Source: Candidatus Rokuibacteriota bacterium
Lineage (GTDB): Bacteria > Methylomirabilota > Methylomirabilia > Rokubacteriales > CSP1-6
Assembly: GCA_003221695.1 (NCBI GenBank)
Contig: QHSX01000040.1
Coordinates: 1-64,000 of the forward strand
DNA length: 64,000 nt
Direction: 5' to 3'
A program made the translations under genes and the position numbers. This document shows, one piece after another, positions 11,779-59,303 of this stretch (within the stretch, counting starts at the first letter, position 1; each line of letters starts with the position of its first letter). Below the pieces are notes generated by a model. That model was not told where the DNA came from. It saw only the letters and a program-made list of their open reading frames with translations, and ran no database searches.

Positions 11779-11876
11779 GGAAGCGTCTAGGAACCCGGTG
11801 GGCCTCCCGGACTTCAAATCCGGTGGACCGTTCTAGACAAACGGTCGATGGGTTCGACTCCCATACGCTTCCGCCA
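11779..11876 (+). tRNA. selC: tRNA-Sec (UCA), selenocysteine tRNA
   Basis: A 98-nt tRNA with an 8-bp acceptor stem (ggaagcgt/acgcttcc), anticodon stem ccgga/tccgg, 7-nt loop with anticodon TCA (11814-11816), a long variable arm (ggaccgt...acggtc), T-loop ggttcgactcc and encoded CCA (11874-11876). The 8-bp acceptor, long extra arm and TCA anticodon are diagnostic of bacterial tRNA-Sec. A TACACT -10-like box at 11740-11745 may drive it. It leads the selA/selB locus. Confidence 0.97.
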
Positions 11877-39479: not shown

Positions 39480-41296
<1,817 letters not shown>

Positions 41297-41499
41297 TTAC
41301 AACGAGTCAGTGTGCGTTTGTCGCCAGCCCTAGGCTACGCCCGAACCCGCCGACGATCAAGTCGAGGCGCGCGACTCTCTCACGAGATCCCAGGGGCGGA
41401 CCTGCGCGACTGCCTTGTAGAAAAACGCCCGATGACGTAGTCTGCCGCGCAGCAACGACTGACGAAGGAGCACGCGAGCTGAGCAGGGGTCACGGGTTC

Positions 41500-57183: not shown

Positions 57184-57381
57184 TCGGCGCACGAGAGCAA
57201 GATAAGCGGCGGGCTTCTCCAGTACGGCGCGGACGTCTTTGGACCTCGGCCGCAGAGCGCCACCCACGTGGATAAGATCTTGAGAGGCGCAAAGCCTGGG
57301 GATCTTCCCGTCGAGCAGCCGACGAAGGTGGACTTGACGGTCAATCTGAGGACGGCGAAAGCCCTGGGAATTCCCACTCCA
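57184..57381 (+). pseudogene. C-terminal fragment of an ABC_sub_bind-type binding protein
   Basis: About 66 codons in one frame: GGLLQYGADVFGPRPQSATH, VDKILRGAKPGDLPVEQPTK and NLRTAKALGIPTP, the conserved end of PF04392-type substrate-binding proteins. The rest of the gene (~260 residues) is missing and upstream sequence is not recognisable. It runs in frame into a DUF5615 fragment, a fusion made by decay. Confidence 0.75.
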
Positions 57382-57402
57382 GTAGTCCGGCTGCCTGAGC
57401 AG

Positions 57403-57770
57403 CCACCCAGACTGCTTTTCGACGAGAATCTGGCGGCCCGTCTTGTTGACGCGCTGGCTGACCTGTACCCCGGTTCCGTCCATGTCAGTGAGGTCGGCCG
57501 GCCGCCTCCCCTGACCGTGCAATCTGGACCTATGCTCGCGATCACGGACTCGTCATCGTGACCAAGGACGAGAACTTTCACCGGCTGAGTGTCCTGCTCG
57601 GGCCGCCACCGAAGGTGATCTGGGTTCGGTTGGGTAATTGCTCGACGGACGACGTCATCCGGCTCCTCCAAGTGCGCCGCGAGGCGATCCCTTTCGTGAC
57701 GCCTCCCTTTCTCGAAAGTCGCTTGGCCCGTAGGACCTGCGTGCGGCGTGCCGCTCACGCGGTCCCCTGA
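57403..57770 (+). pseudogene. PIN-like DUF5615 toxin gene with a frameshift
   Basis: The N-terminal half (RLLFDENLAARLVDALADLY, PGSVHVSEVG) is in one frame; the second half (SPDRAIWTYARDHGLVIVTK, DENFHRL, GPPPKVIWVRLGNCSTDDV) is in another. The switch is at the ggccggcc palindrome 57496-57503. DUF5615 proteins are Mut7-C/PIN-like toxins usually paired with DUF433 antitoxins; no DUF433 gene is visible. The start codon is lost into the upstream ABC fragment. Confidence 0.8.
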
Positions 57771-57807: not shown

Positions 57808-58021
57808 AGGAAAGCGACGCGCGTGATGCCAGAATGGACACGGGCGTTGTTACATGTAGCGCTTTCCGTCACTCATTCGCTCCGCTCGCGCACCGCTCGT
57901 CGGGCCCCGCGCAGCAGTCCTCTCTCGCAATTTCCGGAATTTAAAGCGCCTGCCCCCGCCGGACCGCTGTCTGGCACCACGTCTGCACTCGTCCCTCCCC
58001 AGTAAGTCAGTAAGGAAGACC

Positions 58022-58112
58022 CCTTCTCGATAAGGGCAAACCCGCCGTGAGGCGGGGACGCAAAGCTGCGGGTCAAGCGCGGCGCTTGACGGCCGGGCTA
58101 CCGAAGGAAGGG
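58022..58112 (+). promoter_or_regulatory. GEMM riboswitch (cyclic-di-GMP class I type)
   Basis: Conserved GEMM blocks occur in order: aAGGGCAAAcc (58032-58042), a P2 hairpin cccgcc-gtga-ggcggg with its GNRA-type loop, GGGACGCAAAGC (58055-58066), a P3 hairpin built on gtcaagcgc/gcgcttgac, and GGGCTACCG (58095-58103), closed by a P1 cttctcg/cgaagg. The GTGA loop and the C-rich receptor resemble class I aptamers that bind c-di-GMP; a cGAMP-specific variant cannot be excluded. No terminator hairpin with T-run follows, and the RBS is at 58150-58160, so translational control or an unrecognised terminator is likely. Confidence 0.92.
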
Positions 58113-58163
58113 AGACCGAGGCGCTCACCCGCCAGTCGCACGAAAAAGCAGGAGGGAGGCACG

Positions 58164-58937
58164 ATGAAATCACTATGTCGTTCTGGCCTGCGGACCGTGG
58201 CTGTCGTCGCGGCTGTTTTGGCGATCGCAGTCGCATCCACGTGGCTCGGGCCGTTGAGTGGTATCGCCGTGGCGCAGGAGCCCCAGTTCACCACCGATTT
58301 TCGACTGGAGGACTGCGAGTTCGTGGCGAGGGGAGCAAATCCCTACTTTATCCTCAGACCGGGCTATCAACTCGTGTTCGAGGGGCAGGAGGATGGGCAA
58401 ACGATCCGCCTCGTGATCACCGTTCTGCGCGAAACCAAGCAAATCTTTCTTCCTGATGTTGGGGTGGTCACGACGCGAGTCGTCGAGGAGCGGGAATCGG
58501 TGGATGGCGAACTGGTCGAGGTGTCGAGGAACTTCTTCGCGATATGCACCAAAACCGGCGACGTCTTCTATTTCGGAGAAAGGGTCAATATCTTCAATCC
58601 TGACGGAACCGTCAGTCATGAGGGGTCATGGCGTGCGGGCGTGGGAGACGCGGTGCCGGGCATGATCATGCCCGGGACATTTTTGCTGGGCGCGAGGTAC
58701 GTTCAGGAACAGGCGCCGGACGTCGCCATGGATCGTTCCGAGCACGTGGCGATGGGGCTCGAAGTGAATACGACGGCGGGCAGGTTTGAAAAGTGCGTCC
58801 AGGTGCGTGAGACCACTCCGCTCGAGCCAGGTGCGGTAGGTGTCAAGACTTACTGTCCTGGGGTAGGACTGGTCAGCGACGGAGTGCTTCAGCTGGTCGA
58901 ATTCGGCTTCCCCGGAGCCTCGGGCGCCGCGAAGTAA
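58164..58937 (+). CDS. Secreted protein of unknown function under GEMM control
   Basis: 257 residues from ATG 58164, ribosome site ggagggagg. Signal peptide 1-~38 (VVAAVLAIAVASTW ... AVAQEP). Mature part is beta-rich with DCEFVARGANPYFILRPGYQ, LVFEGQEDGQTIRLVITVL, ETKQIF, VVEERESVDGELVEVSRNFF, GDVFYFGE and C-terminal GVKTYCPGVGLVSDGVLQLV. Three cysteines (DCEF, AICT, KCVQ) plus TYCPG suggest disulfides. I do not recognise the family. Riboswitch control links it to c-di-GMP-dependent surface or sessile lifestyle, by inference. Confidence 0.85.
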   Translation: MKSLCRSGLRTVAVVAAVLAIAVASTWLGPLSGIAVAQEPQFTTDFRLEDCEFVARGANPYFILRPGYQLVFEGQEDGQTIRLVITVLRETKQIFLPDVGVVTTRVVEERESVDGELVEVSRNFFAICTKTGDVFYFGERVNIFNPDGTVSHEGSWRAGVGDAVPGMIMPGTFLLGARYVQEQAPDVAMDRSEHVAMGLEVNTTAGRFEKCVQVRETTPLEPGAVGVKTYCPGVGLVSDGVLQLVEFGFPGASGAAK

Positions 58938-58942
58938 CAGAA

Positions 58943-59046
58943 CGGTCCGGGTCCACGGGTGACAGATCCCAGAGCCTGGGGCTCCTCGGAAGGTGCCCCG
59001 ACGCCGTGAAGGAGGACGTCACCCGTGGACCGAGGCTCGGTCCGGG
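58943..59046. repeat. Inverted repeat flanked by 9-bp direct repeats between convergent genes
   Basis: A 14-bp perfect inverted repeat (58950-58963 and 59018-59031, core gtccacgggtgac) encloses 54 bp with two smaller hairpins. The 9-bp direct repeat cggtccggg occurs at 58943-58951 and 59038-59046, overlapping or adjacent to the ends. It could be a bidirectional terminator or a small MITE-like insertion. Confidence 0.6.
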
Positions 59047-59081
59047 CCCCCCGCCGGCTCGCGCACTCACGCCAGTCCTGA

Positions 59082-59303
59082 TCACGAGAGCCGGACGATG
59101 ACGAAGCCCCGCTCCTGAAGGTCGTCGTAGGTCTCCTGTCGCTTCCGCCGTTCCAAGTCGGCGGCGCCCCCCTGGATGGCGGCGAATGGGGCGAGGCGCC
59201 GATCGAGGAAGACCTTGATGTCCGCGATCCCGGCCAACATCCGCTCCAAATACTCGAAGAGCGCCGGCCGGTTCCTGGCGACGACTATAATGGCGCGCGG
59301 CAT
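59082..59303 (-). CDS. Small protein of unknown function
   Basis: 73 residues from ATG 59303, with ggagaagg 4-11 nt upstream. PRAIIVVARNRPALFEYLERM, an alpha-beta start, then IADIKVFLDRRLAP and a charged helix ending QERGFVIVRLS. The layout (short strand, helix, strand, DRR motif) recalls small proteins of unknown function in other high-GC genomes; I cannot name a family. The frame opens at 59378, but the RBS favours 59303. Confidence 0.6.
   Translation of the reverse strand: MPRAIIVVARNRPALFEYLERMLAGIADIKVFLDRRLAPFAAIQGGAADLERRKRQETYDDLQERGFVIVRLS

Follow-up and report, generated by a model that had tools for sequence, protein, structure and literature searches.

The secreted-protein gene at 58164-58937 of the DNA analyzed here (64,000 nucleotides of a Candidatus Rokuibacteriota contig, hereafter the window) follows a complete c-di-GMP-I (GEMM-I) aptamer whose output part appears to have been deleted. 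The reading that we favor, with somewhat more than even confidence, is that of a sigma-54-dependent leader with a c-di-GMP-I aptamer and a lost Shine-Dalgarno (SD) platform. The leader, predicted to be transcribed with sigma-54, would be one of eight related leaders in this Rokubacterium; a 58-nt deletion would have taken out the anti-SD strand together with the SD and the original start, so that the gene would rely on an SD of its own, 44 nt downstream of the aptamer; and the aptamer would still bind c-di-GMP, with ligand-dependent control of the gene probably weak, lost or re-invented. The features of the locus were:

57972 to 57987, forward strand: predicted sigma-54 promoter, -24/-12, TGGCAC-CACGT-CTGCA (GG-N10-GC), weighted consensus 19 of 20.2.
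58014 to 58021, forward strand: 5′ segment GGAAGACC, the P0 strand in sister copies, its partner missing here (covariation by permutation).
58026 to 58106, forward strand: c-di-GMP-I (GEMM-I) aptamer with intact contact bases (RF03167, RF01051 and contact-base check).
58107 to 58121, forward strand: platform remnant GAAGGGAGACCGAGG, the 3′ side of extended P1 plus a few more bases (agrees with G001:C197, a sister copy, as far as the deletion).
58122 to 58139, forward strand: CGCTCACCCGCCAGTCGC, which matches codons of the sister signal peptide (16 of 18 identical to G001:C197).
58150 to 58159, forward strand: SD AGGAGGGAGG of the present gene (from sequence).
58164 to 58937, forward strand: gene for a 257-aa secreted protein, its mature part predicted all-beta with four cysteines (ORF, homologue search and fold prediction).

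A covariance-model search with Rfam GEMM models, proposed as a check in an earlier note on this DNA, bore out that note's call of a complete GEMM aptamer. The sequence matched c-di-GMP-I-GGC over its full length (RF03167; model positions 1–80 of 80, 71.9 bits, gathering score 59, E 4.5e-15) and likewise the plain GEMM-I model RF01051 (positions 1–87 of 87, 71.4 bits, cut-off 35). All of the c-di-GMP-contact bases of the c-di-GMP-I aptamer, G20, A47, A48 and C92 (PMC3764141), were present. As in the c-di-GMP-I riboswitch RF01051, the window copy has all helices, a GNRA-type P2 loop (GUGA) and these contact bases and precedes a secreted-protein gene; it differs in the sigma-54 promoter on its 5′ side and in the absence of the SD hairpin of its sister copies. 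The RF03167 score lay above the gathering cut-off and was marginally better than that for plain GEMM-I; however, the position equivalent to A47 is G in the RF03167 consensus and A in the window copy and in all 69 other aptamers examined. Strict filing under the GGC subclass was therefore rejected and, judged by the A47-position base, from which we infer the GGC family name to derive, the window copy is an ordinary GEMM-I aptamer.

Transcription of the window leader most likely depends on sigma-54. The site at 57972-57987 reads TGGCACCACGTCTGCA, a GG-N10-GC element in TGGCAC/TTGC context; no other site scoring 19 of 20.2 was found in the window on either strand, and a transcript start would be expected near 57998. 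No sigma-70-type site was found within 57900-59100, and the source genome has one sigma-54 gene (rpoN). Among the 69 clade aptamers with enough upstream sequence, 57 had a sigma-54 site scoring at least 17 (the threshold used), mostly 20–38 nt upstream, where shuffles predicted 1.3 of 69 and the score was reached by 1.6% of random 110-nt stretches of real sequence. A pattern scan of named genomes, which required the pairing itself and gives its occurrence, not its frequency, returned sigma-54 sites with c-di-GMP-I aptamers from many Candidatus Rokubacteria/Rokuibacteriota and also from Deltaproteobacteria/Desulfobacterota, Acidobacteria, Gemmatimonadota and others. No description of a sigma-54/c-di-GMP-I riboswitch pairing was found in the open-access papers searched.

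The source genome contains eight c-di-GMP-I aptamers, which corrects the earlier note, where the gene was singled out as the only one in the island with an identifiable second-messenger switch, and nine GGDEF domain matches; at least one such aptamer was found in 34 of the 60 genomes searched (its own and those of relatives). Two of the eight sit at contig ends. The genes that follow others encode a protein with Ig-like/fn3 domains (aptamer on C5), a glycosyltransferase of family 2 (C55), a protein whose N-terminus resembles that of type IV pilins (C27) and secreted proteins without a Pfam match (C49 and C73). Elsewhere the window holds a TPP riboswitch at 41195-41304 on the reverse strand (RF00059, 60 bits), a selenocysteine tRNA gene at 11779-11872 on the forward strand (RF01852, 69.8 bits) and, at 57268-57770, two adjoining ORFs, one matching the front of DUF5615 and the other its back, as if a gene had been split by a frameshift.

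In most sister leaders the sequence that follows the aptamer (e.g., GGTGGTCTTCCGC-loop-AGGAGGACCACC-ATG) is able to pair the SD away. The mean predicted cost of opening the sister SD was 6.9 kcal/mol in the free RNA and 8.8 kcal/mol with the aptamer enforced, compared with 4.5 and 4.9 kcal/mol for shuffled platforms (46 leaders, p = 4e-5). Enforcing the aptamer raised the cost in 39 of 62 leaders and lowered it in 6, as calculated from equilibrium folds of 180-nt RNAs, a crude and imprecise procedure. The higher cost with the aptamer enforced suggests translation OFF at high c-di-GMP in the sister copies, whose aptamers probably control translation through the downstream SD-hiding hairpin. In many copies the short segment GGAAGACC 5′ of the aptamer can base-pair with the anti-SD strand (helix P0), and the two covary, with a mean pairing score of 8.47 vs 7.42 ± 0.25 in 5,000 permutations, none of which was as high (33 leaders of one family); because related copies are not independent, the test looks stronger than it is. 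The sister copies may also use a P0-mediated ON mechanism. Translational riboswitches with an SD-sequestering hairpin resemble the sister leaders, in which a hairpin hides the SD and is predicted to gain stability when the aptamer is enforced; they differ from them in that the sister 5′ segment covaries with the anti-SD strand, and from the window copy in that its platform is gone.

The closest sister of the window copy is G001:C197 (95% identity over 109 nt), and by comparison with this sister, which lies at another locus and is not a strict ortholog, 58 nt are missing from the window copy at 58121/58122, after GACCGAGG. In G001:C197 the 58 nt hold CTCCCCGAGAACATCGGGGTCTTCCGCACAGCGGAGGGCCATGGTG..., with the anti-SD strand, SD and original start all among them. 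The match resumes after the gap with 16 of 18 nucleotides, a value reached by 0 of 20,000 shuffles, and the junction could have arisen by recombination. No GGTCTTCC-like partner for the 5′ segment was found downstream of the aptamer in the window copy. The predicted cost of opening the present SD, 4.5 kcal/mol free and 5.5 kcal/mol bound, is at the level of shuffled platforms. Enforcing the aptamer shifted it by +1.1 kcal/mol, near the sister median, and it is the absolute cost and the missing hairpin, not the change in cost, that set the window copy apart.

The corresponding loci of two same-genus genomes are also altered. In G001 the aptamer core carries A48U and A49C and scores 42.9 bits on the GGC model, and in G002 the riboswitch lies approximately 310 nt upstream of the gene, separated from it by an 83-codon ORF that is apparently frameshifted relative to the G001 signal peptide. 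No aptamer was found near the other members of the protein family that were fetched. The window aptamer is nearer to the C134 and C197 copies of G001 than to the riboswitches of either orthologous locus, so exchange between aptamer copies is likely. The position of the aptamer close upstream of a secreted-protein gene, as described previously, was confirmed (SD at 58150-58159, ATG at 58164, 57 nt from the aptamer end), and the claim that it controls this gene was not supported, given the deletion of the sister-type SD-sequestering platform, the SD opening cost equal to that of shuffled platforms and the changes at both orthologous loci.

That the aptamer has not decayed hints at continued use. 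In the alternative that survives best, which we nonetheless consider unlikely, the leader is a fully working switch in which CCCUUC of the 5′ P1 strand pairs with GGAGGG of the new SD without ligand, and ligand binding frees the SD (ON). The complementary 6-mers are present, the aptamer is intact and the new SD stands at the usual distance, the 57 nt from aptamer to ATG being like that of most sisters; against it, the rise in SD opening cost from the free to the bound state is small and in the opposite direction. Pairing of these 6-mers could also make for a switch that is new but weak. Action of the aptamer on transcription, through Rho access or a terminator in the coding start and not on translation, is decidedly less probable. 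GEMM-I riboswitches that act on transcription are known (PMC9262584), and the early part of the ORF contains terminator-like stem-loops (58195-58212 and 58329-58344), but these stems are weak, are located in coding sequence and were uncoupled from P1 in every predicted fold. An intrinsic-terminator platform was ruled out: as the earlier note had stated, the stretch from aptamer to ATG holds no terminator, and the three terminator-like sites on the forward strand are all inside the ORF. The gene may also be under Rho-dependent or RNA-stability control.

On the favored reading of a leader that has kept its aptamer and lost its platform, the window aptamer most likely binds c-di-GMP, the ligand named in the earlier note and supported by the identity of the aptamer and its contact bases. 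Another ligand was rejected for this copy on the strength of the intact G20, A47 and C92. An A at position 20 marks cGAMP-sensing GEMM-Ib riboswitches, and the window copy has G20. Sensing of another dinucleotide such as 3′,3′-cGAMP is the least probable of the alternatives, and very improbable. In its favor, the GEMM-Ib riboswitches share the same architecture and two aptamers of relatives have A20; against it, the window copy carries the c-di-GMP set. The two aptamers in which A replaces G at position 20 are L133 (G030:C56) and L134 (G033:C100); L105, the G015 copy, precedes the same kind of gene and has G20. Positions 24 and 43 varied together across 70 clade aptamers, L005–L008 of the source genome among them (A/A in 55, C/C in 8, C/T in 2, A/G in 4 and T/A in 1), which suggests that the two form an alternative non-canonical pair within the internal loop of P2.

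The product of the gene was correctly described as secreted and Cys-containing, as it has a signal-peptide-like stretch at the N-terminus and four cysteines in the mature part. The earlier note could not place it in a family, a point that is corrected here. The window protein had no family match in Pfam, NCBIfam or PHROGs; however, homologues were found in 15 of the 99 genomes searched, the source genome included, and the profile search proposed earlier, which gave no family for the window protein itself, matched 13 of 27 homologues to the DUF3108-like family PF21347 (best 4.6e-08). The Rokubacterial family to which the window protein belongs is a distant relative of the DUF3108-like proteins. 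Two same-genus orthologues are approximately 70% identical to it, and no relatives were found in named genomes. A sequence search of the PDB gave weak matches only (best E 0.43 for the single protein and 0.011 for the profile).

AlphaFold2 predicted a confident all-beta fold (pLDDT 95.5, pTM 0.90), and comparison of this fold with PDB and viral libraries returned nothing significant. The largest TM-score among the PDB matches listed was that of EipB/DUF1849 (6ntr; TM 0.44, E 0.92), a Brucella periplasmic beta-barrel-like protein tied to envelope integrity (PMC10787603). Like EipB and the PF21347 proteins, the window protein is secreted and beta-rich; it differs in its lack of a Pfam match, and the resemblance to EipB is weak. 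The window protein would be a secreted, beta-barrel-like protein of the envelope, probably periplasmic. Paralogues in the source genome (C3) and in G072 adjoin AcrB-type RND efflux genes, in G072 with a MacB-type ABC transporter as well. The earlier suggestion of a surface or matrix factor suits this protein, whose paralogues lie beside efflux genes, less well than it does the pilin-like, Ig/fn3 and glycosyltransferase targets of the regulon. Loci L047, L048 and L050, with matches in G053 and G056, hold two diverged family members approximately 6–14 kb apart; pairs of this type recur without a riboswitch, and RND efflux genes adjoin them in the fetched loci.

Neither this class of aptamer nor its association with surface genes is new. 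Control of a gene does not follow from an intact aptamer ahead of it, since the output part of the present one appears to be deleted. The near-constant pairing of a sigma-54 promoter with a c-di-GMP-I riboswitch in an uncultured phylum may be new, and it predicts transcript starts and a two-signal logic. More tentatively, and at a little under even confidence, we propose that Rokubacteria and their relatives, together with several other phyla (e.g., Desulfobacterota), rely on leaders with two inputs: sigma-54 would set transcription, and the c-di-GMP-I aptamer would set translation by way of an SD hairpin, itself tuned by a segment 5′ of the aptamer that covaries with the anti-SD strand. The window copy would be a natural loss-of-platform mutant of such a leader.
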